DNA of 64,000 nt, from the NCBI RefSeq assembly GCF_965638725.1, contig NC_134961.1, forward strand, positions 3,100,001 to 3,164,000, in the 5' to 3' direction. The translations under genes and the position numbers were made by a program. The stretch's first letter is position 1. Each line of letters starts with the position of its first letter. The DNA comes from Aptenodytes patagonicus (Eukaryota; Chordata; Aves; Sphenisciformes; Spheniscidae). The notes beneath the pieces were generated by a model that saw nothing but the letters and a program-made list of their open reading frames with translations, searched no databases and was not told the origin of the DNA. Below are positions 5,201 to 46,700 of the stretch, in pieces.

Positions 5201-7387
5201 ACGGCGACTGAGCATGAAGGTCGAGAGGACCGAAGCGGCGAGGCTGAGAAGATTTTCCCTTTGGAAGGAGAAGGAAAAGGAGGGGCAACGGGAAAACGAA
5301 AGGCAGCTGAAACGGGTGCACTGGGCGCAGGGCACTGCCAGGGGGTTTAGGCAGGGCGCTGCAAGGAGCCGGCTGTGGGGAAGCGAGGCAGACGCTGGGA
5401 TTTGCTACCGTAGCCTTGTCAGTGACTGTCCCCAAGGTGTGTTCCTTTGGCATCCCCCTCCTGATTGTTGGGGGATGCCAGTGGATGCATCGTTTAATTT
5501 GCGGTAACAAAACTAAACTTGAAGTCAAGAAGATTTAAGCCTTGCTTAAGTTTTCGAGTGCAGACTGTCAGAGCTGGATGATTTCTCTCCTCAGAATGAC
5601 TGAAAACACTGCAATTTTTGTCGTGTGGAGAACAAGCTTGTGTTTGTCATTAGGGACCTGTCAGGTGAATAGTTAACCAAGTTTTAATATGAGTTTTGAT
5701 CCACAGTTCAAATCAGTTTATTGAGCATTTGCAAAGAATGGAACGTTGCCCAACATAATTCTGAATTGGTAGATTCGGTGGTTTAGCTGAAAATCATTAG
5801 AGGGAAGAGTACCATTTTAATAGTAGGAATACAATCCATAAACTGTAATCACACAGATTTGTACGCCATATAATGCTGATATATCTTGTTTATTTTAAAC
5901 CACGTTATTCTGGTGTCAGCCTGATCCATAGTAATTCCATTTTTTATCTGTGATATTCAGAATTTCCTTCTCTTGTTGGTTTTTATCTTTTCCCTTAATT
6001 AAACTTGGACTGTGGCTCCTGCTCTGGTGATAAGGCAGCTGCATTGCAACTGCTGCTTCTTTTTGTTTAGCTGTAAGTGGTTTCTTTCTTGGAAGTTGAC
6101 TTCTTTTAGGTACGGTGTGAGTAACATTTTTACACTCCTTAAGGAAAAAAAAAAAGCAGTTGTTGGGTTTTAGCAGATGATATGATTTAATGCCTTGAGC
6201 TTTTGTGTGTGTACCTGGCGTTTTGTTCCAAGTATTAAAAAAAAAAAACCCTTTAGAATTGAGAGGATTTATGAAGTTAGACACAGAATGAGCAGCCATC
6301 CCGGCGGCCGGTCCAAATGTCAGATGTGGAATTAAAGTTGTTTAGCGATGCCTCTCAGAAAGTCCAGGAGTGGTCCTCTAGCAAATGATGTTTTAAAACT
6401 TTTTTGCTTGGCCAAGAGGTCGCAGCATCGCCGCGAGTTGCACGGTCCCCAGCGAGGTGAGGGGGGGAAAAGCCGCTGCGGATGCCTGCAGAGTTTGTTG
6501 CCCTTCAGATTAAAAAAAATAATAAAGGGGGTCACTAATTTAAAATAAAACCGCAAACGCTGGAAGCTGCTGGCAGAGCCAGCCAGAAGTTGTTGGCTGC
6601 GGGGAGCCGGGCCGTCTCCCGGCGCGGGTCGGTCTGCAAAGGCCGGCGGTGACAGGCGCCCGGCCCGCGGCGCGATGCTCTTCGCAGAGGAGGCAGCCGG
6701 GCTTGGGGCTGCCCCGCGGGGAGCAGCGGAGAGGTGCCGGGGCTTCGGCGGGGGTGGGGGCGGAGGGGGAGCTGGAAATCTCGGTAGCCTCGGCCAGTCC
6801 CAGCCCCAGAGACACACACACACACAGAGGAGGAGAAGCCGCCGCCGCCGCATCTAGGAATATGAATCCCCCCCCCGCGGCAGGTCGGATCGCCTCGGCT
6901 CCATGGTGAGGAGAAAGAAGAGCCCCCCTGGGCCCGAGGAGCCGCGGAATGGGTAGGATGGGGGGCGAGCCGCCGGCCCGGCCCGGCCGCGCTGCCCTGC
7001 TCCGCTCCGCCGGGCTCGGCGGCTGCCTTTCCTCTCGGCGGCTGTCGAGCGCTTCCAGACGCCCGAGTTTGGCTGGGCGATTTCTCCGCCAAAGGCGCCC
7101 CGAACCCCTTCGGGAGGGTGCCGGAGGGCTGCCGGGGGAGCCCGGCTGCCTTTTGGGCCGGTTTGGGGGGGGTTCCGGCGGGGCTTTCCCCCTCCCGCCC
7201 TCGGCACAGGTTGTTGGGTCGGGACAGCAAACGAAAGGGGATTTAGTAACAAACAACGGCGGCCATGTTGAGAGGAATTTCTGCAGCTAAACTTCTCCCC
7301 TCTCAGCCCAGGGATTTCTCTCCCTCTCTGGGGGGCTCCCTGGCCTGACTTTGTGTCCCCCTCTTTTCTCTCTCTCCTCCCTGACAG
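4974..7387 (+). other. CRAMP1: CRAMP1 intron 1
   Basis: The intron begins GTGAGA and ends in a long pyrimidine tract and CCCTGACAG. It includes ordinary AT-rich sequence from about 5520 to 6300 and a second CpG island from about 6300 to 7280, listed separately. No repeat element is recognised. Confidence 0.55.
6300..7280. promoter_or_regulatory. Second CpG island in CRAMP1 intron 1, possible alternative promoter
   Basis: A separate GC- and CpG-rich block sits just upstream of the first coding exon, divided from the first island by about 1 kb of AT-rich DNA. It contains a donor-like GAG followed by GTGAGG at 6456/6457, another GTGAGG near 6905, a CACACA run near 6813 and a YY1-like GGCGGCCATGTTGAG near 7257-7271. 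It could be an alternative first exon or promoter for CRAMP1, or an unmethylated intronic extension of the main one. Sequence alone cannot decide. Confidence 0.45.
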
Positions 7388-7388
7388 G

Positions 7389-7737
7389 ATGACAGTGAAA
7401 CTGGGAGAGAGCAGCGGGGAGGAAGGGGTGAAAAAGCTGGGCAAGAGAGCAGGAGGAGATGAGGAGTCCCTGGAAGAAGAAGGGGCAGGAGGAGGAGGAG
7501 AGGCAGCTCCAGGCAGCAGCAGCACAAAGAAAGAAGAGAAGATTATTAACAACAACACTAACAGCAGCCCCCCACCGAACCCCAGCTTATCGCAGGCCCC
7601 GGCCTCCCTCCAGCCCTCCCACAGCCAGGACCAGCATCATTTTCTCAGGTCCAGTGTCAGACCTCAGAGCAAGAGGCTGAAGAAGGATTCCCAGGCATCC
7701 TCTTCAGTTGGCAGCAGCACTGCTGCAAAAGGCAAAG
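7389..7737 (+). CDS. CRAMP1: CRAMP1 coding exon 1 (gene exon 2)
   Basis: This exon encodes residues 1-116 plus one base (phase 1 donor AAAG, then GTACTG). The exon itself begins at 7388, one base before the ATG, after CTGACAG. It starts MTVKLGE and contains an acidic Glu/Gly run from a GGA/GAA-rich stretch (about 7445-7510), a poly-Asn/Ser segment, and the conserved [16 protein letters not shown]. It is mostly disordered-looking. Confidence 0.95.
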
Positions 7738-13700: not shown

Positions 13701-16700
13701 ATGTTTTTGCAAACTGTGGGTTGAAAGCTGAGTGAAAATGCTGAGAACTTACACATCCAAACTTGGTGCTTTGTACCTCGTATGCAGGTGCTGGTGCTCC
13801 ACCGCATCCTAGAGTGAAGGGAAGGAATTGTCGTAGCTGTAATTGTGTGGATGTCCAGTCCAGTGGTTGGGTGATGCAGGATAAGTAGACAGAGTGAGAA
13901 TGACCATCTTGTCTTTGTCTTGTCTGCAGTGATCTCCTTTTTAGAAATGTTTTTACTTAGAACAAGCATCACAGCAGATTGTTAGAGTAAGCCCCCTTCC
14001 TCTCTCCAGCAATTCTGCAGCAGTAATGGTATGGCTAGCCTCAATGGACCTTTTTGTTCTAATGCATTGCTTAACTTTTTAAATAATCTATTGTTGGAAA
14101 TTAATGATCATCATCATCTGTCATTAGTGAGGGGATGAAAACTTGTTAGCTGTTTTGTATGTTACAAGAATTCCATACAGTAAGATTGAAAGAATGAATT
14201 TATGGGGCGTAATTTAATGATGTATGACTATTATTACTTTTTTTTTTGCCTTTTATCCTGAATTAGTTTATAATGCCATGTTTTAGAATATAGTGCATTC
14301 CATTGCCTTACCAAGATCCAGTAAACTCTAGAGTGGATTGTGGTAACCCAGTGATAAACATTACCATGCACAGTAGTAAGAAAGCTTATGCAAAGGGATG
14401 ATATAGCAAACTCCTTTATTCCTGGAAGAATTAGATGGCATATAAGATCTCTGTAGAGGTGACGGGATATTAGAATTTTTAGATCTTCATATACAATACT
14501 CTAAACAATTGTCTGGATAGCAATTTATTTGTGTTTAAAACAAGACAGACTGTGATAAACTTCCTAGGACTACAGTTTGTCTTGTAGGATAGTAAATATA
14601 TATAAAGGAACAAAACAGCAATTATGAGCTACGTATCCTTTGTAGAAGTTGAATCAGTGGAGTCCTTAGCATGTCCTCAACAGAATTGTTCTGTTCGTTT
14701 CATCTTTTACGTACAACTAAGGAAATCTACTGAACTTTATAGTCTTATTAGAATTTAAAGTCCTCACTGATACTTTTGCTTCTTCCTCTTTTTAATAATG
14801 AAAACTTCATGTGTACCAAGTGTACTGTACAATCTTTAGAAAATCCTTGATAAGATCTGAACTTTGGGCAACTGACTTCAGGTTTTTACTTACTTGAGTA
14901 TGTAATCAGTGATGTTAACCCCCCCAAACCCCAAACAACAAACAACCACCCAACAAATAAACAAACAAAACCCCAAACCCCCACATTCGTGGTTCCTCTA
15001 AATGATTTCTCAGAAAGTTAGAGATCTGTCATCAGAATAGTAACTCTGGAATAGAATCCTGTAGCTGTCTTTTGATAAAGGACATCTCCTGCATTGCGAC
15101 CTAGTAGCAACAGGAGATTGTAGATTGAGATTGAGGACTGATGTGTTTGAATTCCACTTTCCTGACTGAAGATTTTAAATGCTAAGATCTGTATTTCTTT
15201 ACCATGCAAATTGTGATATTCCAATCTCACATTTGTAGAATAGAGCAGCGATTGTGTGTCTTAAAATGGTTGGTTTTCTTCTCAGCCATCTATTAAGTGC
15301 TCAGGTTTTTCTAATGTTTTCATTTTTTTAAAGGATTTACCTTCACAGTAACAGAATTAAATTGCTTAACTTTCAATTATTTTATCAGTGGCTGATGAAG
15401 GCTTTAGGAAATAGAGAAGCTGTTTATTTGAGAAGTTGTTTTTAAGTGCGTTTTCTTCTAGATGTCCAGTTCTTTTTCATGTTTTGCCTTACATGCTTCT
15501 CTGTGGTGACAGTAATTTTCTTCGAAAGGATCAAATAGTCATTCCTAGAAATAAAAGAAACATTAACATTAAAATGGTCACAATATCATATTTTATATCC
15601 AGTAAATACTGATTGTATGCAGGAAAAAATGTACTTTCATGCACTCATCATACATCAACCAAATCTTTTCCAGATTTGGTTTCAAATGTTCTTTGTTACT
15701 TGAACAAACAGGTTTTTTTAGGTTTTGGAGCAGTATGATTTTGTCATCCAAAGGAATTACTTTCAAATTGCAACTGAATAGTTACAGTTAAGATTTACAT
15801 ACAAGTCTTTCAAATCTCTAAAGCACAGTAAGCCTATAACAGTTGATTCTCCTGATATTCTTTTTTTTAAATTTTAGGATTATCAAACTGGGATAATCCC
15901 GGTTCTTGAATAGAGAGAGAGAGATGTATGTATAAACACTGACTTTGTCAAGTAAACAAACTGCTTCATGTAATTGAATTTCAAAAGATAACTGAACTTT
16001 TTAAGCCTAAATATGAAAGAGAGAACTGTGCTAATGTGTATAAAAGTTTGGGAAATTAGTTGGGACTGCTATGTTGTACAAGCTGGATTTATAAGCAAAT
16101 AAACTAAGGCAAGCCAATTTATCATGAGATAAAAGACAAAACATAAAGGACAGTAACTGGAAAAATGGAAATGGAAAAGCATTTTTTATAACGAGCAATG
16201 TGTGTTTAATGTTAAAGGGCTTCTGTTTTATTAAGTACACACCTGCATTGATAAGGGCAGTCAAATCTTAAATAATACTTCTTAGCAAAATTGAAGAGAA
16301 TATATTTTGGAAATGTAAGTTACTGAGCATGGTTACGTTTTCATGGAAAAAAAATGAGTGCACTTTTTGGGAGGTCTCCCTGGTTTCTGGATTAACATTC
16401 TGATAATCTGTTACAGTGTCAAACCAAGCATGATGTTTGGTTTGATTTCTGTTGTGAATAAATCACAGGTTTAAGGTTAGTTGATAATGTTTTTGCTGAT
16501 TAAAATGTCTTTGAAAGACTAATAGTTTCAGACGCAACTTAAAAAAAAAAAAGAGGCTTTTTCTTCGGAATTAAGGTGAGGGAATGGAATCTTGCTGCGT
16601 TATACGTAGCTCTCACCTTCCTGCAGTTTCTCCATCCCATTTTCTTCCCTGTTCCCTACTTGCATAAGCAGCAAATTCTCTTAGTTCCATCAGGCTTTAT

Positions 16701-19700: not shown

Positions 19701-22700
19701 ATTGGGGAAAAGCCAGGTTCAAGGAAATGTTTTTCTGTTCTCAGGAACACACCTTTGAGGACAGCTACCTAAATGTTAGTCAGGCATGACTTCATCGAGC
19801 AAATTGACTCCAGCACTACTTTGCGCTTCTTGAGGGAAGGTAGAAATAAATAAATAGTCCAATACAAGTGTAAATGGTGAAATATTTGCTCACACTTTAA
19901 ATAAGCCTGAAATTGTATCATTGGTTCAGTAACTTAGGATTCCCAGTGCCATAGAATCATAGAATCATTGAGGTTGGAAATGACCTCTAAGATCATCGAG
20001 TCCAGCCGTCAACCCAACACCACCATGTCCTAAACCATGTTCCTAAGTGCCTCATCTACTCGTCTTTTAAATACCTCCAGGGATGGGGACTCCACCACTT
20101 CCCTGGGCAGCCTGTTCCAATGTTTCACCACTCTTTCAGTAAAGAAATTTTTCCTCACGTCCAATCTAAACCTCCCCTGGCACAACTTGAGGCCATTTCC
20201 TCTCGTCCTGTCGCTTGTTACTTGGGAGAAGAGACCGACCCCACCTCGCTACAACCTCCTTTCAGGGAGTTGTAGAGAGCGATGAGGTCTCCCCTGAGCC
20301 TCCTTTTCTCCAGGCTAAACAACCCCAGTTCCCTCAGCCGCTCCTCATCAGACTTGTTCTCCAGACCCCTTACCAGCCTCGTTGCCCTTCTCTGGACACG
20401 CTCCAGCACCTCGACGTCCTTCTTGTAGTGAGGGGCCCAAAACTGAACACAGTATTCGAGGTGCGGCCTCACCAGTGCCGAGTACAGGGGCACGATCACT
20501 TCCCTGCTCCTGCTGGCCACACTATTTCTGATACAGGCCAGGAGGCCATTGGCCTTCTTGGCCGCCTGGGCACACTGCCGGCTCATGTTCAGCCGGCTGT
20601 CGACCAACACCCCCAGGTCCTTTTCTGCTGGGCAGCTTTCGAGCCACTTTTCCCCAAGCCTGTAGCGCTGCATGGGGTTGTTGTGGCCGAAGAGCAGGAC
20701 CCGGCACTTGGCCTTGTTGAACCTCATACAATTGGCCTCAGCCCATTGATCCAGCCTGTCCAGGTCCCTCTGCAGAGCCTTCCTACCCTCGAGCAGATCA
20801 ACACTCCTGCCCAACTTGGTGTCGTCTGCAAACTGACTGAGGGTGCACTCAATCCCCTCATCCAGATCATCGATAAAGATACTAAACGAGATATTCCCCT
20901 CTTCCCATTCTTTTCCCTCCTTCCCCAGCTTGTTGAATGAAAAGGAATTAGGAAGTCAGATGAACTGCTAGTGGTGTTTTGTAACAATAATAGTAATATA
21001 TGATCTTTGATAATTTATTTTTATCAAATGCATACTGTTCAGTAATGGGCAGTGAGAATTCAAGTCAATTTGTGGATAGCCTAATCTGAATAGCAGGTTA
21101 AAGAAACCTATTGCAGAACGAACAGATTTTACTAAGACCCAGTTCTTTTGACTTTTTTAAGGTATGAAGAATGTCAGTTCTCCCATTAGCTTGTTGATCA
21201 AGTAAAGGTCTCTAGGGCTTTCCTATCCTTCTGATGCTATATTCTAAGTTGCATAAATCGTGGCTGTTTCATGGTGGTTGAATTTTTTGGTATTTAAACA
21301 ACTCTCTTTATCATCAGCAGAAGTTTGGATAGTAAATTCATCTACATGATTTGCGGCCAGAGCCTCTCAAGTTAAAAATAACTCATTAATGAGAAATGGA
21401 TTTGACTAGAAAAAAGCTGAAGGAAAGCAAAGATAGCATACAATATAGTCTCTTTATGAAATTGTTTTGTCTGTTCTTGAGATTAGGTTATCTGAAGGGG
21501 GACTTACACATCTAAAACACCTGTCATAAGGTGTATTTTTGAGTTCCTTTTTCAAAACAAGACAGCATTTTAAGATGAAACAAGCCATTAGTATTTTATT
21601 TAAAAACAAGTGTTACAGGAAACACAGTATGGAAGAAGGTTGTTTGTTTTTTTTTTTAAAAAAAAGTGTCATGGAGGTACTTCATCTATTTCTGGCTAAC
21701 GTAAAGTTCTGTATCTGTACCTATAAATCTGTCTGAAATCTCATTGGCTGTACGAATTTAAGAATTAGTGCAGTAGTTTGATTAGCCTTAGTATTGGTAG
21801 AAATATGTGTGCCTGGGTTTTGATATTAAATGAGTCTGCAAGTCAGAGAACTGAATTCTTGACAAGACGAAATATCTTCATCTGATTTGTAAACCACAAG
21901 ACTGTCTTTCAGTTCTGTCATAAATATTTAGATCTATCAGCAATAATAATGTCCCCATCATGTGTGTTGATGAGAAAGGAGAAAAAAAACTTGTGAAGTT
22001 GAATAAAATGTGTGCAATTCTTCATATAAAAATTTAGAATCTAGAATTTGCATTAAATCTCTAAGGTGCATTCATGTCCACAGAAGACATTCTCTGTCTT
22101 CTGGAAAATTCAGACCTACTTCTTAATTTTCATATAGGAAGGAGTTCTATATGCGTTTTCTTGGGGACATCTGGACATTTCCTTTAGAAATTGTAAACAG
22201 TTAAGTGATACTAGAGTTAGCTTTATTATGAATTAGCTTCATTTTGCATATTGAACTGTTGCATATTTGTTTCAATTCTGTGGAAGCCGCTCTGTTTTTT
22301 CTGTAATCTAAAAAATGTTGCATTTCCCAGATATTTAAGTCACCAAAAGGAAATTGGTGAACCCGTCTCATTATAGTGTTTCTTGAAACAGAACTTGGTC
22401 TTACCTTCGATGAGGTGTTTGTCTCATCATTGAAAATAAAAATCATCTCATTTTCAGTGTTGAAATGAGTATCTGCAATGTCGCTGTGTATGAGTGTCTG
22501 CAATCTGCATCTCACTTACACCTTTTCTACTTTTCAGTGTTTTCTCAAGGGCTGAAAAAATCCTCCCTGGAGCTTTATGGCTTAATCTGCTATGGGGAAC
22601 TAAGGAAAAAGATTGGGGGATGTGAGTATGAATGACTTAAAGTAATTTTTATATAGTAGAATCAGAAGTGTCTACCCTTGAAGTTGGCAATGACTAGTAC

Positions 22701-25700: not shown

Positions 25701-28700
25701 GTTCACCTCCAAACAGTTCTGCCAACAGTGCTCGCGAGTCCTGACTTTCAGACCTGAAACGACACTTCCAGTACACCATAGGCCTCAGCCCTCCAGTCGC
25801 TTCTGCATCTACTTGATTTTAAGAATGAGTATTCTGTTTGACTTCAAGAAAGAATTACGGGATTTGGGGGTTCAGTCTTGGCAATGTACTTTTAGAATAC
25901 AGAAGGAGTTAGAAGTTGCTGTACTCTTACAAATGAGGGAATTGGTTCGTAAATTTTTCTGAAGTAGTCCTGCTTTTAGAACTTGTGTATTCTAAAGTGA
26001 AATATCTTTCAAAGGATATTATTTTAAGGAGTGTGATCATTAAGCAGGCATCACTCAGCAGGCATTGGTTTATCCTAAAAGCATCTTTAAAAGCGATTTG
26101 AAAATAGTATTATTTTCTGTCTGTTGCAGATCCCTTTTTACTTTTGGCAGTTGTGCTTTTAGGATGCTTCATTGTAGCAGACAAATTATTGATGAACTAA
26201 ACTTTACTGTAAACAGGAGGAAGAGTTTGCCCACTCAGCAGCTGCTGACTTTTTGACTTTACCTTACATAAAATGGATACTTGTTGTTGCGCCTTTCTGT
26301 TGTTCACAGACTGAGTTTCCAAATGAGTTCTTTGCAGTTTATTAACCTTTCATCTCCTGGGAGATGCACTTTGTACAGTGTGCTGTTGTGTTGCAGGTCT
26401 TGAACGTGATTATTTATGAAATCACTTCTTCATTTTAGAAGAGAAATTGCCATTTGGTTTGGGTTTTGTACAGTTAAGAAAATCTTAGCAGTAAGTTTTT
26501 TCATATAACAAAATTATTCTTAAAGCCAATACTTCTTTAAATTGGAGTTATTGGTTAAAATGTGCCTGGGATGAGCCTTTTTTCCCTAGTGTCCTGAATA
26601 TCTCTAGGCTTCAGGATATAGGCAGTCGTTTTGGTCTCTCTGTGTTGTACTGGAGAGCCTTTCTAATACTGCATCATCCAAATAGACTAAACCATAATAA
26701 ATGAGACTGACTTTGGGCAAGCTGTAGTGTCAGTCCATCACTTCGCATGATTAAGGCCTTAGTTCTTCTAATTAATTGTTAATGAGGGATAATGATTTCT
26801 GTGAAGTTTAGGTGTTTATTCTATAAAAGCCAGTCTTGTAACAAACCATTTTGAAAACAGGAGTCTTTGCATTTGAAAATATCACTGCTAATCTTCTAAC
26901 CAAAAACTAGAGTGTACGTAATATTAACATTCTTGGGCAGTTCAGAAATAGTTGCTCTTGCATAGGCTTTTTGTCTACCAGATGGAGGACACATCTTTGC
27001 TTCCCTTTTTCTCCTGCATCTCTTACCCCATTTGGTGGGTAAACCTCCTGGATGTCTACACCATCTGAATTAATCCCCTGCATGTGCAGGGCAGCCTCAT
27101 ATCTCACACAAGCAAACACATTGCATATATCCCATTAGATTAAACTTTCCATCTTGCTCAGTGATGTTACAATTCTGTGATCCCCCTCTCTATTTGTAAG
27201 CAGTTCTTTTTTTTTTTTTCAGTTCCTAACGTGTTTCTTTCAAGTGTGATACTCCTCCTTTTCCTCTGAGTGCAGCGCGCTTTGTAAGGTTTGTCACTAT
27301 GTTGAAAATCTTGAGTGAAAGCAAATCCAAAGTGATTAAAAATGGAGAATGTGAACATTCATTATTCTGATGCATCTTCTCCTGAACTAGGTAAACATCA
27401 GCCTCATTTAATTGGTAAGAAAAGTCAAGAGAGGCTAAGATTGTGAGGAGCTACCTGGCAATTTATTTGTAGGACAACTCTAGACCCTGGAGTTACACAT
27501 TCTAATTCAGTGCTTGTTTTGCTTATGTTACACATCACCTCTGGCTTTCTGTAATAGTTACATGGTGTATGGAAAAGCAAATGACCCTGTGAGGTGCTCA
27601 TAAGAAAACCATATTTAAAATCTTCCTTGTTGAGATTATAACCCAGGTCACAGATCCTAAATAGTGCCTGAAAGCTTAATCAACTGACTATTGCAAGTAA
27701 TGGCAAAATTTTTGTGTGAAATGTCCCTGTTTGGTCATTGAAGTTAAGGCCATTCACTGCTATACATCTCCGTACTTGTCTTCAGAATTTCAGTAACATG
27801 TAAAATCAGGCTAGACCATAGCCTTTGGTACAGTTGTAGTTGAATGAATGGGGGATCTTTTAGAAAATAGATCAAAGTTGAGATATTTATAAATGCAAGG
27901 GGAAGATAAGAATTGTTCTGTCAGCTTTTGTAACTGGTCTGAGTCATTTAGCATACTCATGTCAACACTGGTCCACACGAGCTGCTTAAAGAAGTCTTCA
28001 GAATCACTAAGCAGGACAACTGTGAAACAAAGCTCCCTTAGAAATTATAGGGAATCTGAATCACTTTCTGTCCAATCCTTAGTTGCTAGTTTTTTTTATT
28101 ACAGCGACAATATGTCACTGGATTGTGTGATTAGGATATATAACAAGAAAAAAGATTTATGGCAGTGTATCAGAACTGCTCAGAAACCCATTTAAATAAG
28201 TTTAAATAAAACGTTTTTTGTTTTGTTTCACTTTTAGGAGTGAAACATTTTTATTTAACTTAGGTTTTGCAACAATCTTTACATTTAATAAAAAACTACA
28301 TTTGAGGAAATATAAATATTTTCTGGATATCTTTGTAGATCTGCAGGATTTGTGGATGAGTTAAAAAAAGAACAACAAAACCAAAAAACCACAACGAACA
28401 CATAATTAAAGAAATACCGTAAATACACAATGGTTAAAGCACAGTACTACTCAGTGTCTGTTAGTGTATGTGTTTTTGCCCCCCAACCTGAGAGCCTCTT
28501 AATATCACAAGTAAGAGAGACCATTAAAGACAGAAACTTTTAACAGGTATTGGTTGATCAGTCTGGTTCAGTTCCTGGGTGTGCTTTGTGTGGAGCGGGA
28601 GTGATCCTTCATTGCTCCTTGTAAAAGCTGTTTGGCAAGCTGAGGTGGAATTTGTAACTCCCTAGAAGTCTTGATAATAAAATAAGAATTCATCGTGAAA

Positions 28701-34700: not shown

Positions 34701-37700
34701 GTGTGTTCTCTGTGCTTGTACTACAGAATGCCAGTTTCTTCCCTTAATTCCCATTCTGGCATCAAGGCTGTGACTTGAACTTCTGCTGACACTTTTCCTC
34801 TGTTCCCTTGCTTTGTTTATCTCGCATACAGGATGATTGTGGAGTTACATCGAAAGGTCTCCAGCCTCATTGAGTTCCTGAAGCAGAAGTGGGCTCTCCA
34901 TGAAGTGCGTATTGTATCCTTTTTCTGCTTAGTCTGTTCTGTATGCTGTGTCCTGGGAGCAATTCCCTTCCTATGCGAAGTTCATTTCTGCATCAGAAAT
35001 GTGATTCTACCTCATAAATTTACCAGCCCGTGCTTAGTAAAGCTAGAGGTCAGTATCTCAGCACCACTAATGGAGCTTTTCATGGGAAACCCCATAATAG
35101 TCCACTTTTACCTCCACTCTTCTCTACTATGAACCCCTGAAAAACTAATTAGTAATAAGGGAAGCTCCCTGCCTTTATTTCATTTCCTTAAACAGTGCGC
35201 TTAGTCTGTTCATTATAGATGGGTGACCACCGCAGAAGCCTGGCTAATAGCTGACGATTTTGTTTCCCGTTTCAGCAAAGAGATTAAGGACAGATCTTTC
35301 CACTTGCTTTATGCAGTTTCACCAAATGAAGGCTTAAGCTTCTTGTCTAGGTAGCTGCTGCTACCTGTTAGGTATCTATATGCTGTCTGAGCCGTACAAC
35401 ATTAGAGATATCCCTACCTCTGAACTTTGATCCATGGAGTAGAAGGATTTGTGAGTTAACAGCCATTCTGTTCTCCTGTTGACTGGTATGCTGTATCCTG
35501 TTCTTAGTCCTTTAATTCAGGCTTTTCTTTTTAATTTGTGAGCCTGGGAAGAAGTAGCAGCATAGCACTTGAAACTTAGAAGGGTGTCAAAACACGTAAG
35601 GTGGAGGTTACTGCACAGTAAGGGGAGTCTGTTTTGCTGTGCAGTGACGCTGGGGTTTTTTTGCTTGGTTTTGTTGGGGTTTGTTGGTTGGTTGGGTTCT
35701 TTTACAGTTACAATGGTGTGTGAAGCAGAGATAAGTAATTTTGTCTGGAACAGAGATTTAGTTTGTGCTTGTAGCAGGTCTTCAGTGTAGTCCTTATCCC
35801 CACAAAAGAACTTAATTTCTGATCATAGAGTCTTCATGTCTGTGCTGAATAGAGGACGTGTCCTTGATCAGCTACTTTCTTTTTTTTTTTTTTTTTTTTT
35901 AACTTGCGAAATAGGCTACCGGGTGTTTGTTTGGAAGGGGCAGATGATCGTTGTATTCTTTGACACGTCTTTTTTTAGCGTAAAACACTAGAAGAACGGC
36001 AGCTTCAAGACTCCAGAGACTCGGAAACAAGAGGCAGCTTCTCAGAGGAGAAAGTGATGCTCCATCTCTTTCCAGGAGAGAACTGTACACTCACTCCGCT
36101 GCCTGGGGTAGCCAGAGTGGTCCACTCCAAGGCTTTCTGCACAGTGCATTGGCAGGAAACTGGCAAATGCAAACAGAACACGAAAGACTCTCACTTACTA
36201 CCCCCTGCACAGATCTTAGGCATACAGAGTGGTCAGGGAACAGCTAGGGGACAGCTAAAATACACGCGGGGAACAGAAGGTAAGGGTGTTGGAAGGGCAG
36301 AGAGCACTACAGAGTCAAGCAGAACCTCTCAGCCCACAGCTGAAGTTTCTGCAAGCACTGAAGATGGTGCCCCGGAGACTGGCCTGGTGGAAGGAACAGC
36401 CTCCAATCTTGGCATCACTAATTCTCTCCAAAAACCGCCTTCTGGACTTCAAGATCCAGGAGGGAACCACGAAAAGCTGAGCTCAGCGGCCTTCTGTGTG
36501 GAGGGCAGGGAGGCCCTGGCTAGTGACCAAGCAACTGTGTTACCATCGTGCAGCACAGCTTGTGCTTGCAGTAAGATCCCTGATGTGGAGGAGCTCTCTC
36601 TGCTTGATCCATTCCCACGGTACATGAAGTCCTGTCAGGACCTGATCGTCCCAGAGAAGTGTTCTTGCACAGACAAACTGCATGGGAAAGACTCTACTCC
36701 AGCAGCTGGTGATACTTCTCCTGTGGCTTTTCCAAGTGGGAGGAGCACAGAGACATCTGACTCCTATTCACAGCTACCGCGAGGTGGTGTGGCTTCACCC
36801 GGCAGTGGCCCATCCAGATACGAAACTCAGGCTAGCCACAGCCAGGGCCAGCAGCTTGATGCTTGTGCCAAGGATATAACAGATGCAGTAATGGAGGATT
36901 CTCAAGAGAAGCTGGGCTCCTCATTTCCACCTCCACCTCAGGGACAATCTAGTACAAAGTCTCTCAAGGATGACCCAAGCCGGCTCTCTCAACAGGTTAG
37001 AGAAGAAGGATGGAGCCTGCGAACTTCTGAGAGCCTTACGCTGGCTGAAGTCTACCTCATGATGGGCAAACCGAACAAGTTGCAGCTGGAATATGACTGG
37101 CTGGCCGTCTTGGAGCCAGAAGCCCAGGATGCTAGGGAGCAAACATCTGAGTCAAGTGCTGTTCCTTCATGTACCACCTTTCACAAGCAGAGACTCCTAA
37201 ACTGCCTTTTAAAACTCATCTCTACTGAAGTCAATCCCAAACCAGTAAGTAGTTCTTGTTCATGCTCCAGATGCTAAACTCTCACTTGATCTGGGGAATA
37301 ATTGCCCAGTTCTGTTTTCATAGTAAATCAGTGACCAGCCTTGTCAAGATCTTGGAGATTCCTGTGTTTAAAAAAAAAACAAAAAAAACCCAAACAAAAC
37401 CAACAACAAAACCCAAACACCACCACAACCCGGCTTGCTACAGAGCGGACTTTTCCTCAACATGCTGCATTTGCTTTTTACACTACCTTTTAGTTTCTGG
37501 TTTGCTGTGAGTCTCAATGGTATTACAGTGAACATTTAATGTGACTACTGAAAAGATCAGTCATGGGGTTAGGTTGGGTAGGTGCCTTCTATTCTCTCAG
37601 GTTTATAGAACTAAAGAACAGCCCAGGTTGGAAGGGACCTTGGAAGATCATCTGGTCCAACCTTCTGTGGGAAATGGAGCCTAGATGACAGAGGGAGCCT

Positions 37701-40700
37701 AGGTGAGATTAATATTCCACATGAAAACTGCAACCCTTAATTTCCAGTGTCTGTGTAGTTCAAGTTACACTAAGTGTAAGTGTGAAAAGAATTCATTTTT
37801 TTGGGATAGCATAGCCAATATAACTGTGTCTGCCACAGTGATTTTTGTAAAAGCTCCCAGGCTCTAGGGTAGTTGTTTAACAGACCCAGAAAAATATCTT
37901 CTTCCTTAGGCAGACAACCGGGAATGAACTTGCTTTCCTTCTTGTGCATTGTAACCAATGTTTAAGACCTGTCCCTGTGATACCGGGGCAGCCGTTTCCA
38001 CCTAGTGCAACCGATTGAAACCTAGTAAAACATCCTTTTAAAGACCAAAAAGACACTGAATTCAACAGATGAGACTGAATTCCTGTGCTGGAGATACGAT
38101 AAGTTAAAGATACCATTTGCATTGTATTTCCAGCATAGGCTGCAAATGTATCACTATTCCCAAACACACATAGTTCTTTGATCTTTCTTTGTTGGCACAG
38201 ATTTACCACCCCCACCCCCCCAAGCTCCTTTTGATCCTGATTTTATAGACATAGAAGGTAGGATTTTATAAATTTAAAACCATCTTTGCTCAGATATAGC
38301 TCCAGATATAGACTTTGTTTAAACTGTAAAGACTTTTGGTCTGACATCTCACAGGTCTGTGACAATGTCTCCTCTTTCGGCATCTACTTTTACTTCTGGT
38401 GACACATGTGACAGCCAGGGATGACATGATGAAACAATCACGAACTAGAAGGAAGGACATCTCCTTAGACTTGGGGGGAGAGGGATAGAAGAGGGGGGAA
38501 AAAACCCAGCAGTTATTATTTGCAAGTGTTTTCCCGTCACTTCAGCACTCTTAGTGTCTTAATCAAAGTAGTGTAGTGCTCCTGAAAAATAATTCTTTCA
38601 GATATGTACCATATCGTACATTCCAATGAAAAGTAACGTATACTTTTATTTGTCAAATACCACTTTATACTGGCTGTTTTTCAGAAAAAGAGATACTCTT
38701 CTTGTGGCAATGAATGTCGTGGGACTGATACATATTCAAGAGGCGAGGATGATACTGCCTAATTGAAAGTACTGTAGACTTTTTGAAAGTTTTGTCTCTT
38801 AAATCCTCTGCATTTCATCAAATAATGGCAGGAACCATAATATTTTTGCCACAGGGTACTTTAACAGAGGAAGGACTGATTGTCTAGATCCTTGCTGTTT
38901 TCTCAAGATAATATGTAACAAAGCTAAAATGGCCAACTGTGCTGTGGTTCATTCCTTTAAATGAAGATTACCAGCATAAAGCAAACTATAGCAAATTGCA
39001 TTGCAGTCAAGTGTGGGTGGTAATTTTATGCCTGTGATTGCACACAGATTCCTTAAAAAGGGAGCATTTTCTAGAAAAGCATTTAAACAACTTAATGAAA
39101 GAACTGGATAGGCCTGGAAAATTAGTAAGCACCTTGCCATGTGCCTCTTGTCAGTGCTGTATTACAGTATGAAATAGGAGAAGGGATGGGAAGAAGTTCA
39201 AAACTATTGGTCTCTACTTGATTAGAATTAAGAGCAAAGTATTTTTGTCCAAGTATACTTCCAACCAGAGGTGCTCTCTGGATAGGTAGAGTTTATGAAA
39301 ATTAATTTTGCACTGAATTAAAACCAACACCTTTTCCATTAGTGTGACAATTCTGTGTCTTTACCTTTTTTCTATTTCTTTTTTTTTTTCCTTTTTATCC
39401 TGGGGTAGTCCAGCACACTGAAGCTTGTGTAGTGTTAACCCGATTGTAACATAAATTAATGATATTGAACCGATGATGTTTAACACTGCTAAATGCACAG
39501 GCAGGGAATTTCAGCTGCCCACCGCACACACACAGAGGTATTGGTTAGGGTACTTAAAGATGTTGTAGTATGTCAGATTATTATTTTTTTTAAGCTTCCT
39601 AAGTAGAATGAGTTTAACAATATACTTCTTGTAACAGTACACAATATTCATGTAATGTGTGTGCATTTTTAGACGCCCGAGATGAGCTCTGTGGCCACAT
39701 CCCCTATAAAGCCTGCTCAAGAGGAGCAGTCACTGACTCCTCCGGGAAAGGTGATTGCCATCAGCACCAGGAGTCCAGGTTGTGCACGAAATCAGTCTGC
39801 CCTTCGCAACAACAAGACTTTTTCTCCTGGTGCTGCTTCCAGCTCCTCAGGTGAGTATTCATAAAAATCCATTTCAAGAGATCAGACCCAGGCCATGAGC
39901 ACCTTGTACCATGATGAGCACGTCCCAGTAATGTAACGCTGGGAGAATGAGTGTTCTTACTTTTACGAACTTAACTGTTTCAGAACATTGGTATGTGTTA
40001 ATTTGCTTTAGAGTTGTCCTAAATTCAGTGCTTCTTTGAACCTTGAAAAACAATGTGTGCCAATAATACAGTTTACAGCCTGGAAGAACTCTCACGAGTC
40101 TCTCCTACAGAAGATGCTGGTGTTTGTTAGGAGCTGACTGATACAGGGCGTGGGATCTCAACAGAGTGAGGGCTTACAGAGCAGGAGAGTAAATATATGG
40201 TGTAAAGTTTGTTGATAAAACAATTACTGAAAATTTTCTGTGCCATTCTGCCATTATAAAATACGGAATGATTATGAATTACCTTTTCTTTTAATAGAAG
40301 GTACAGCTGCTATAACTTGTGAGCCCTAGCCATGCAGACCAAGAATTTCAGTTCTATTCTTCAGTCCCGTTGCATTTGCCAGCAAACGTTTTATGACTTT
40401 AGAAAAGTCTGTGAAGGTGTCAGGGTTACTGGGAACTATTGTGATTCTTGTGCTGTCCTTTTCACACCCGTGCTGTAAGAAGCAGTGGACCATGAGCAAT
40501 TTAACCGATGCTGTAAAACATACTTAGTGCTCTGTGTGGTTTTCATTTTAGAATGGCATTATAGCAATTTCATCTTTGTCTAAAGCTTACTTGCAGACAA
40601 GGACGTACTTACTTAAATATCTAGTAAAAAGCCAATAATTTAATAGATCAAGCAGATAAATTGTTACATTTCAGTAAGATACACAGGCCTGAAGGACATA

Positions 40701-43700
40701 CCTTTTTAAATCAGACTTGCGAGTAGAATCAAGCTTACTTAGTTTGCAAAATTCATTTTTACGAGATTGTACTTTATGCTGCCCTAATGCCTTGAGAATC
40801 CTTTCTGAAGCCTTTTAAGTAACGGTAAGGATCATCCGCTGAGGATACCAGACAGAAACAGCAAGAAGATAACAATGCTTTGTATCTGATCTCTTAGAAA
40901 CAGACACCTGTTCTGTTTACACAGAGCTTCATTGATTCAAAACCAAATATAATTGTCCATGTTAGTCTTTGATTCGCATCACTGAATTACAAGTAGGGTT
41001 GTGCAGCACTATGGTTTAAGATACCATAATGAAACACATAGTCTTTAGTGCAAAGTCAGGACGTGAAAAATACAGACTATGTATTCCTGCTTTTGTACAG
41101 TACCAAAGGTAGGTTGACAGTTGGACTCGATGATCTTAGAGGTCTTTTCCAGCCTTAATGGTTCTGTGATTCTATAGCCAAGTTGGCTTCAGCTGAGCTG
41201 TTTGGCTTGAACAGAGGAGCAGTAAAAGTGTGTTCAGTACAACATTCTACCTAGTTAATTAGTATAGCTTCTCAGCAGTTCTGCCTGGGGTAATGCACTC
41301 AGCTTGGGCCTCAGGTAATGGCATCCAGCACGTCACACAGATACCCAAGCAAGTCTGATACCTTCACCCTAAGTTGTGTTGTTTTGGTAGACAAACTGAA
41401 TGCCTTTTATCAGCCCTGATAAGGGTGTTCTGGATCTAAAATAGGATTGTTTGTGGTCTGCAACCTTTAGTATACAGTAATTATCAAGCTTCTTTGTATC
41501 CTCACATGCAGTGCTATTAAGTGACTGCAGTAATTTGGCTGTCAGAAAGCAAACTGCTAGGTTACTTTTGGTGATGAGCCTTCTAGGTGCCTTCCCTCAT
41601 AGACTTTGGTCCTGAGTCCGTCTAGGTGCTAACTGCTTTTTGGTTTTCGTCTTCTGGGTTTTTTTAATTAAAGATAAATTGATTTGGCCTTCTCAGTAGA
41701 AAATAAAGATTAGAAGATAGCCTGTGTCTACTCCAGAAGAACTGAAAGTGTTAGCAAACTGACAGTTCCACAAAAGCCACGCAGGTAGCTGGAGAGACAA
41801 AAGAGAGGATAAGAAGAATCATGCAAAGAGATTTAGAAAAAGTGAAGCAGCAGCTGTGATGCAACATCACCTGTAGTGCTTAAAATATCATTATGTAATT
41901 ATAGTTGCATCCGTTTATTGCTTTTTTTAAAGATAATATCATGTGTATTATCTTTAACAATTCTCTCTAACTCCTGGTCAGGCAGGAGGCACAAATTTAT
42001 ATGTCTGCCTGTAATTGATTTTTAGATACATTGGCACACTAATTTTAACTAAGCTTTGGAAAAACAACCGAATCTAGAGCAGCAGGGTGGAGGGTGGCAA
42101 TTTCATCTTTTAAATAGGAGGATAATAAAACCTGCAGGTTTATTAGGTAAATAAAGCTTCATGTTCTTCAGAACACTTCTTGAATACTGTTGCGTATACC
42201 CATCTCTGCCTTAGGGTGGCCCAAGCTTGTGCTGTACTGTATTCCTGCCTAGGGCAGCGGGCATGACTAGGGATCGTTGCCCACCTTGCTTCTTCCCCCT
42301 CTGGGTGAGTCAGGTGCCTGCTGCCTGCCAGCTGAGATCTCCAGCCCAGCAATAGAGGCTGGAGCACCGTGACAAGTATGAGTGCAATACGAGTGTGAAA
42401 ATAGCCGTTACTCTCTGTTGTAATGAAACCCGATGTTTTATGCACAGCAAGCACTTCTGTGGAAGAGAGGCAGGTACGCTTCTTGGTCATCTCAGAATGA
42501 CATACTGACAATACTGGTTTTCATCCTAGCTGGATGCCTGCAGAGTGGGCACAGCACTGTGGAATCCTACAGTATTTTTTAAAGTTCAATGTAAACGAAG
42601 ACCTTTTTTACTTGGACCAGATGCCGTTATTTCAATGTGCCAAATGTATTTCTAAGACAATCCATCTTTTGGAAGGTATTTTGGTAAATTGATCCCTGCT
42701 CTTTCTCTGTCACCAGGATCGCTTTATTGGGGTTGCACTTGGAATCACCACAGGGTGGTGGTGGGGAGCGTAAACAAAATATAAACATTGTAGAATGAGT
42801 CTGTGTTTGTATTACCTTCCCCTACAAAAGGAATGGTGGATATATAGTTTGTTTAGTGGGAAGGGCCTTCAAGTATTTCTACAGGCTGAATAGATAAACT
42901 GGTTAACATGGTCTGTGTGGGGCTTAAAACTGGCTGCTTAACTTCTAGTTTCTTTAGTAGCGTAAAATTGCATTTAACCCCCTTCTTCCAAGGATTTCAA
43001 AGCAAGTGAATGTTTGCAGTGTCCTTGTGAAGCAGGTAAATACTGTCAATTTGCAGGTGGGAAAACTGAAGTATCAAGAGTTTCATGATTTGAGTTCACA
43101 AGCAGATGGTGGCAGAGCCAGGATCCATTAAGTCCCAGCTCTCTGTATGATCCTCCAATTACTAAAGAGTTACTTTCTTTTTGTTTTCACTTTACTTCAT
43201 TTAAATTGCTGTCAAAATCTTCTAGGTTTGAGAAACCTCCCTAGACCTCTCTTGGTGGCTGGTCCTTCAAGTTCTGGAAGCACTGATGCGGATGGTGGAC
43301 TCTTTGCAGTTCCTACAACTCTCCCACCCAACAGCCGCCATGGGAAACTGTTCTTGCCTAGCAAAGAAGCAGAACTGACCTTCCGGCAGCACTTAGATAC
43401 AATCAGTGTAAGTGAGATGACTGACTGAATGAAAAAAGTAGCATATTGTGCCTGAACCAGCTTCTAGTCGGTATTACAGGGGTTTTTTTGGTTCATCAGC
43501 AAGTATGGGCTTCCCTATGAAGCAGTGCTTCTAGTGATGCTCAAGCATAACATTTTATTAGCTGAGATTAGTCAGATTTTGACTATGTAACTCTGCTTTG
43601 AAGTGACATCACCTCTTCAGGCCTGAATCTGAATGCCATCACACAGCCTGATGAAACTGGTTCACTCTCTAATTAAGTTGCTCCAGCAAATATATTTGCC

Positions 43701-46700
43701 AGGTTTAGCAAAACTGATATCCTTCTTATCGTGCAGCTACTTTTAATACCTCATTGCTGTATTAAATTCAAATACTCGTTTTATTTTTATATATACAATC
43801 TCACTAACAACTTCTGGCAAGCTGCAGTAGCTAAGTAGTGAAATGGCTTTTTTGGGAGAAAGCTTTATCTCCGTAAAACAAGAAGAAAAAAAACCATGCC
43901 TGGTGGAAAATTTTCCTACTCTAGCAGAAAGATTATTCTACTGTCTGAAACAAAACGCAGTATTTTAATAAATAGTTATAACTTTACTGAAAAACAGAGT
44001 CTGGGGGGTATAATTTATTCTGTGTCTGCATGCTTAAAATACTTTCTAATGCATTTCCTGCTCTTGTCCAGATGCAGTCGGACTTCTTCTTGCCAAAGCC
44101 GAGGAAGTTACGGAACAGGCACTTGCGGAAGCCATTAGTAGTACAGGTCAGACCAATTTGCAAAGTGTGAAATGCCTGTTTTGCTTCCTGAGTAGATATC
44201 AGTAAGGCTATACTGATTTGCACCTAACTGAAAAAACCCTGAACTTCCCTCGTACATCCGCTGGAAGAGTGAAGCTGAACATATGAAGGAACAAGCATTT
44301 TAGTCTATATTGTAGCCAGCCATGTTACATTCCCTATGTGAGGAATGTCAGCAACAGTAGTAGTCCAGTGCATGAGGTAGTTTGGAAAAAATAAAAAAGG
44401 CCCTCATCTGAAAGCAGGTTCTGCTGTTTGGGCCTGCTGGTACTGATGCACAGGCAGTGTGTTCACGTGGTATCCTGGTCTGTCATTGTTAGAGCTGTCA
44501 GTGCTAATGCAACAAGATCCCCCTTTAGGTATTTTTTCCTGCTTCCTACGCACTAATGGCTGTTAAACTGGGGTGGGTATAAACCTCTGTAGTGAAATAA
44601 AACATAACACTATTTAAAAGAACAATGATTTCTGGAACAAATGGGTCTTGCAAAGAGATGTATGGAAGAGGTAGCCTGTTGTCATGGAACTTTGGTGGTA
44701 GGCAGGCGTTAACCTCCCTTAGACTACTCTGATAACCCAGCAAAAAGGCACGTGCCACTGTGAAACTGCAGGTGGGGAACATACAAGAAATCTAAAACCA
44801 AAATAATGGAAACTTGTTTAGGGAAAACAAAGTTACCGAGTGTCAATATACCCTTTTGTCTCTTCTGCTCTGTATAAGAGTAGGAGACCTAGAAATCACA
44901 TACATGCTGTTTTCTGGTACTGAGATTTTCTGGTCTATGCAATTCCATTTGTTTTAAGAGCTCCCAAGTACATACAGCTGCCTCATGAATTCACACTTGA
45001 TTAATTGTAATGGAAGATCAGTTTGCACACAGGCTAGATCCCATCCTTAAGATCACTGCTGTAACTCTGTGGGAGATTTGAAAATTACCACAAGTATAAT
45101 CAGAAAGGAATATAGTTCTAATTAGCATTTCTCTGAGAATTGTCCATGTGGAAATTTTCTCTTAGAGTAGTTTACAGAGAAAACACATGATTCCTGTCTG
45201 TAGCTTCTTTCTCAAGATTACACAGACCTTATTGCTGTGTCTGTTGCATGATAGTCACGCCGTGTAAATACTCTGCTTATTCTGGAAGGTATCATGAACT
45301 TCTGTGCCTTAAAAGATGAGCTTTACCCTCTGTTCTGTGTTTAAATATGTTCTGGTTTATTGTTGTTTCTCCCACATAGAGAACACTGCTCCCGAGGCCA
45401 TCTGGAAACCCATCCCAGCATGTCTGTTCCTTTTCTATCTTATCCAACTCATCCATTACAGGTGAGTCTGCATGTCTTCTATCCCTTTTATGCTGCCATG
45501 AGATGGACTAGAAAGTGTCTCTTAAAACTGCATAAAGGAATAATTTCTAAAAAGAGGAAAACATCCTTTCAAAACCACAGAGTCCTTTACTAGTTGCTTG
45601 AGTCACTTCCTACAGGATGATGTGATTGTTCTCCATCATTGTTAAGCAAGTCATGATTATGATAGAAATTTTTTTCTTCCGTTTCCCAGTATTGAAAGCA
45701 GGGAAGAGTAAGGAGTTCTCTACAGGGAGACAAAATTTTGGAATAAATTACTTAGATAAGAATTTTTGTTCTGTAGGGTGTAATAATTTGTCTAGATTTT
45801 TTTAATGGACTTTTCCTAGTACTGTTTAAATCTCATACACTATAATCAATGTACTGCCCATTTGCCCTTTTCTGCTAATACACTCTTGAGTACAATGGTA
45901 GCACAGGTGATCCCCCATCTCGGCTTAAATCTCAAAATCAACATGAGACAGCTTCAATAACACAGCAACACTTGCTGTTGCATTTTTGTGATAAGGCACT
46001 GGTTAGCTTGCATTGGTATTTCAAGTCTGTTTCCACTCCGCTACTCGTCTCCACTACTTGCATTTCCGGAGCTCGCTACTGCTTGGAATTTGTTTGCTTC
46101 CACTGAACTGTGTTGTGCTCTGCTTTAAAGATGTTAGATTTCTTTTGCTTGAGAGGTATTTAATCCTTCACCCTAGGGAGAGGTTCGTTTCGGCCAATCC
46201 AGTCCTCGCTGACTAAAGCTGCTGTTTCTCGTCCGATTGTGCCCAAAGTTCTTCCAACACAGGCTACCAACCATCTGTCCAGTAAGTCACTTCTTAAACA
46301 GAATGAGTGTCACGGTCTGTTGTGATCTGTATGATGTTACGTTGTTGGTTTCTATTTCCTAGGTAAAATCATTAGTGCCTTTGGAAGTTAAAGAAAACAG
46401 CTGTGTTAATGACAACTTTACTTTCTATGACTTTGTGTGGCTGCAGAAAGGGAGCAGTCAGTGGTGGGACAGCCTTGAACTAGGTTCCTTCACTGTGTCT
46501 GACCTGCAGGCAAAGCAAGGGGTTAGAATTTGTGATGGTTTGTTGTCAGACCACTTTGAAAAGGGGTTGTGACATATTTGAAAGAAACTTGCAAACAGCT
46601 TATCTACTAACATGGGATTATGAATTCTACAAGAAAACAACATGCTGGTGTACTCCAAGCAAATACTGTCTTGCAACAAAAGAATGGGTCCCTTAATTAG

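Follow-up and report, generated by a model that had tools for sequence, protein, structure and literature searches.

Evidence for a U12-type intron in CRAMP1 within a 64-kb window of the Aptenodytes patagonicus genome

Results

A likely minor-class intron between coding exons 8 and 9 of CRAMP1

An intron of 1065 nt in the CRAMP1 coding region (34914-35978, + strand, phase 0) carries the signals of the minor spliceosome class, and we regard it with high confidence as a genuine U12-type GT-AG intron on the strength of its sequence. The donor is an exact U12 5' splice site, a branch-site-like element lies 15 nt from the intron end, and the exon junctions on both sides are in frame. A first-pass annotation of the window (the whole stretch of 64,000 nucleotides analysed, C13:3100001-3164000) had proposed a U12-type reading. 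That reading is supported by the donor, the branch, the distance between branch and acceptor and the open frame on both sides, and by the fact that the other 18 CRAMP1 introns are unlike this one.

The gene model was built from exon candidates defined by splice-site scores and open frames, together with tblastn using the N-terminal part of human CRAMP1. The assignment to CRAMP1 is presumptive and depends on this human query sequence. The model places the CRAMP1 coding region at 7389-53182 (+ strand), with 20 coding exons and 1326 codons plus stop in one open frame throughout. Matches to Myb/SANT domains at residues 161-218 were weak in both Pfam and PDB, the Pfam match falling below its cut-off. 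Coding exon 8 (82 nt; 34832-34913, + strand) ends ...WALHEVRI in phase 0 and is followed in the model by coding exon 9 (1266 nt; 35979-37244, + strand). The predicted exon 8/exon 9 junction joins ...GTGCGTATT to CGTAAAACAC in phase 0. An exon-like stretch at 38201-38257 was dropped from the model since its phases do not fit. An Rfam scan of the 64-kb window at gathering scores returned no family. Searches for relatives of exon 9 in the genome-contig and viral-contig collections gave 32 and 7 pattern matches, respectively, with 0 confirmed.

The intron is coding intron 8 in the 20-exon model. Its earlier number, intron 9, is plausible if the count takes in a 5' noncoding exon. Such an exon upstream of the ATG at 7389 is likely on sequence grounds, because the acceptor-like CCTCCCTGACAG/GATG (slash, exon boundary) lies directly 5' of the start codon; the 5' noncoding exon itself was not found.

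Donor, branch and acceptor signals

The donor string GTATCCTTTT begins at 34914. The U12 5' splice site GTATCCTTT (34914-34922, + strand) agrees with the consensus (A/G)TATCCTTT at 9 of 9 positions, as the first-pass annotation had stated. The same donor lacks the features of a U2 site, namely G at +5 and purine-A-G at +3 to +5. Its U2 score of -1.6 bits is the lowest among the 19 CRAMP1 introns, which bears out its earlier description as a poor U2 donor. This and the other splice-site and branch scores come from approximate matrices, unvalidated on known U12 introns.

The branch-site-like element TTCTTTGAC (35956-35964, + strand; 10.9 bits, approximate matrix) contains the presumed branch A at 35963, and the last intron base, 35978, lies 15 nt past it, in agreement with the spacing first annotated. 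The annotated branch match of eight of nine holds when either purine is accepted at position 7 (TTCCTTRAC, 8/9) and drops to 7/9 against the strict form TTCCTTAAC. Against the 8-base consensus TCCTTAAC, the element scores 7/8 with A or G at the sixth position and 6/8 strictly. The acceptor reads TTTTTTTAG/C, with its AG ending at 35978. The stretch from branch to acceptor (35965-35978, + strand) is pyrimidine-rich, ends in AG and contains no internal AG. The intron AG is preceded by seven consecutive T, and a second T run is found some 80-100 nt before the intron ends. An alternative U12 acceptor at 35914, with branch TTTTTTAAC in a T run, was rejected; its use is predicted to give a premature stop and a product of 384 aa.

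The U12 donor and branch consensus used for plain counts was taken from PMC8199999, which gives a branch-acceptor distance of 10-20 nt in minor introns and describes these introns as being without a polypyrimidine tract. An optimal distance of 11-13 nt is given both there and in PMC6717393, according to which the MIDB classifier scores the 3' splice site with a matrix spanning -13 to +1. Phase 0 is disfavoured among minor introns, at about 22%, according to PMC10639083.

Comparison with the other CRAMP1 introns and with known U12-type introns

Scoring with U12 matrices, which the first-pass annotation had suggested, gave 16.2 bits for the donor at 34914 and placed the other 18 introns at or below -5.9 bits (approximate matrices). 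The U2 donor scores of those introns ranged from 4.1 to 12.5 bits on the approximate matrix, so that all 18 of 18 have U2-like donors, as claimed earlier. The branch score, reached at 15 nt, was the highest of the 19, the next being 7.9 bits at 31 nt (approximate matrix). Plain consensus counts gave the same picture: the donor matched at 9/9 positions versus 2-5 of 9 in the other 18 introns, and the branch, with R allowed, at 7/8 versus at most 6/8. The intron at 34914-35978 is the sole outlier among the 19 CRAMP1 coding introns.

With vertebrate U12-type GT-AG introns (U12DB, MIDB), the intron shares the full donor (A/G)TATCCTTT, a branch near TCCTTAAC, a branch distance within 10-20 nt, GT-AG ends and its position as a single minor intron amid major introns, here those of the CRAMP1 model. 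It differs from them in being phase 0, in its pyrimidine-rich sequence before the acceptor and in two departures from the strict branch consensus. GT-AG ends and T-rich sequence before the AG are also shared with the U2-type introns of CRAMP1, whereas the donor at 34914 has no G at +5 and carries TATCC in place of the U1-complementary (A/G)AG. The strict branch mismatches count against the U12 class. So do the T-rich sequence before the acceptor, phase 0 and a weak U2 donor 9 nt upstream, none of which, in our judgement, tips the balance against the donor and branch.

The genome searched (1.35 Gb, 618 contigs) contains genes for both minor-spliceosome RNAs examined. The U12 snRNA gene scored 148.7 bits (cut-off 53) and the U6atac snRNA gene 134.4 bits (cut-off 33), the latter with two weaker matches besides. 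When the branch region was paired with the genome's own U12 guide, UUCUUUG was paired and the presumed branch A lay next to it, unpaired. The pairing energy was -4.4 kcal/mol, compared with -9.7 kcal/mol for the consensus; values in the other 18 introns ranged from -3.2 to -11.2 kcal/mol, and the energy does not discriminate among them.

Alternative donors at the exon 8/9 junction

A possible competing U2 donor, GAA/GTGCGT (34905-34910, + strand), lies 9 nt upstream of the U12 donor and scores 5.0 bits on the approximate U2 matrix. Its use is predicted to remove VRI in frame and to give a protein of 1323 aa. Both donors could be used, with the U12 site at 34914 as the main one and the U2 site at 34905 in a minor or regulated role, yielding two proteins that would differ by VRI. 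The two donors are both in frame and nine bases apart, but a 5-bit donor is weak beside a perfect U12 site, and we consider joint use unlikely. It is compatible with the U12 reading, and the probabilities of the two overlap. The same pair of donors is carried by four further copies of the CRAMP1 3' part in a tandem array described below. More speculatively, the pair could act as a switch, in which minor-spliceosome activity would set the level of full CRAMP1 and hence linker-histone transcription; we hold this to be improbable.

Splicing by the U2 route from 34905 only would make the U12-like string a mere neighbour of the intron start. The score of that donor does fall inside the accepted CRAMP1 donor range of 4.1 to 12.5 bits, and the frame is preserved. 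However, the exact nine-base U12 donor and the good branch would then be left unexplained. In addition, the human CRAMP1 sequence used for comparison reads through the exon 8/9 junction with the three codons VRI. We consider U2 splicing from 34905 very improbable.

Chance expectation

To gauge chance occurrence, a pair was defined as a strong U12 donor with a branch-plus-AG within 5 kb, and 60 one-strand simulations of 64 kb were run. At least one such pair appeared in 34 of the 60 simulated strands. The window itself holds three pairs on the + strand, one in coding intron 1 and two that begin at the 34914 donor; its - strand adds another two. An isolated donor and branch pair in 64 kb is not significant. 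A second exact U12-like donor at 14633, with a branch-plus-AG at 15388 (755 nt downstream) in coding intron 1, was rejected as expected by chance.

The pair at 34914-35978 is significant because it sits at an in-frame exon junction, and only for that reason. The null for the junction was obtained by simulating 12 Mb matched in composition to the 18 other CRAMP1 introns. The probability of GTATCCTTT given GT was 9.1e-5, and that of a branch of at least 7/8 at 9-20 nt before an AG was 0.0092. The open stretch of exon 8 contains 20 GT sites. The joint chance was about 1.7e-5 at the exon 8/9 junction, rising to 3.2e-4 when all 19 introns are considered. That base composition alone produced the match at an unusual U2 intron, for which the simulated strands and the intron 1 pair might be cited, is scarcely credible against this joint chance at a junction whose U2 donor scores lowest among the 19.

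Predicted splicing route and products of failure

Membership of the U12 class would make CRAMP1 splicing reliant on the minor spliceosome, and production of the CRAMP1 protein is probably reliant on it as well, judging from the intron's signals. As for other introns of the class, the U11/U12 di-snRNP would recognise GTATCCTTT and TTCTTTGAC together, and U6atac would then take the place of U11 at the donor. A35963 would serve as the branch nucleotide, with exon 8 joined at the AG 15 nt downstream in phase 0. Failure of minor splicing would be expected to cause intron retention, with a stop after 72 added codons, or a shift to nearby U2-like donors such as 34905 and 35049, because the major spliceosome would find a very weak donor at 34914.

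The products of failure were predicted by translation only, and the donors were scored with the approximate U2 matrix. Upon retention, an in-frame stop at 35130-35132 (+ strand) would end a product of 446 aa. The cryptic U2 donor GAG/GTCAGT inside the intron (35049-35054, + strand; 7.6 bits) would add 45 codons in frame, giving 1371 aa. The donor at 35001 (4.9 bits) would also be in frame, with 1355 aa, and that at 34889 (4.1 bits) would lead to a premature stop and 369 aa. Skipping of exon 8 is predicted to give a premature stop and 350 aa, and skipping of exon 9 an in-frame product of 904 aa.

Relation to published work

Searches of published articles pairing CRAMP1 or CRAMP1L with minor introns, intron retention or U12 returned nothing on CRAMP1 minor splicing. 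The match for CRAMP1 and U12 was PMC9376625, which concerns HBZ interactors. Articles on CRAMP1 and the spliceosome included none on minor introns, as judged by title and abstract start, and CRAMP1L was absent among the matches listed from the general minor-splicing literature. Minor introns in MIDB number 770 for human and 722 for mouse, according to PMC6717393, and 94% of human minor introns are cited as conserved in chicken in PMC10639083. The CRAMP1 intron would be an unexceptional addition to an established class, and it may well appear in existing catalogues.

If the assignment is true, CRAMP1 joins the minor-intron-containing genes. PMC12819152, citing Matthews et al. 2025, credits CRAMP1 with controlling the linker-histone gene. 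Minor-spliceosome disease or mutations of the ZRSR2 type could then lower CRAMP1 and H1. The value of the assignment is that of a useful and simply testable annotation, not of a new kind of system.

A tandem array carrying the CRAMP1 3' part

A 1.7-kb query around the intron gave five matches on C13, each 99-100% identical and in one shared orientation. The matches belong to a unit of about 65 kb in five tandem copies, which contains CRAMP1 coding exons 6-20 and exons that a probe identifies as putatively JPT2-like. The first unit starts at window position 28245, in coding intron 5, and runs to C13:3192629. The second copy starts at C13:3192630, 64,385 bases on, and further copies start at C13:3258504, at an estimated 3323000 and at about 3388148. 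Aligned unit pieces of at least 1 kb were 98.8 to 99.7% identical, and the two tandem junctions that were compared were identical over 60 bases. Within C13:3050001-3310000 (260 kb), there is a single set of coding exons 1-5 but three sets of exons 6-20; a MAPK8IP3 probe found no match in this 260 kb. No match of at least 1 kb to the unit was found in C13:3450001-3470000, and the last copy is therefore either truncated or altered towards its end.

Exons 6-20 of copies 2 and 3 contain no indels and no amino-acid changes over 1049 residues, and GT and AG were kept at each intron end checked. Substitutions relative to copy 1 numbered 7 at 6302 exon sites and 175 at 43566 intron sites (Fisher p 7.6e-5, with changes in copy 1 counted twice), so that exon divergence between copies was about a quarter of intron divergence. 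The six distinct exon substitutions among the three copies (window 36449-46208) were all silent. This low exon divergence may reflect selection acting on the extra, headless copies; alternatively, the array may have captured older haplotypes of a gene under selection. The five-copy array may be a real amplification or an assembly error. A literature search on CRAMP1 and tandem duplication returned a single neuroblastoma study.

Coding exon 8 is identical in all five tandem copies. The three U12 signals are also unchanged in 5/5 copies and 10 other intron columns vary; the copies being nearly identical, this constancy lends weak support to the U12 class.

Several other features were seen in or beside the unit. 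On the minus strand at C13:3187100-3192150, beside the tandem junction at the unit end, lie LINE reading frames that are putatively CR1-like. Copy 2 has an insertion of about 1 kb (C13:3211905-3212921), which aligns in reverse orientation, at 92.5%, with C13:3187140-3188151. Putative CR1 repeat-end words also occur on the minus strand near window position 19965 and point to a bird genome. Inside the repeat unit, an open stretch on the minus strand at C13:3176414 and below resembles a bird CCDC81-like gene.
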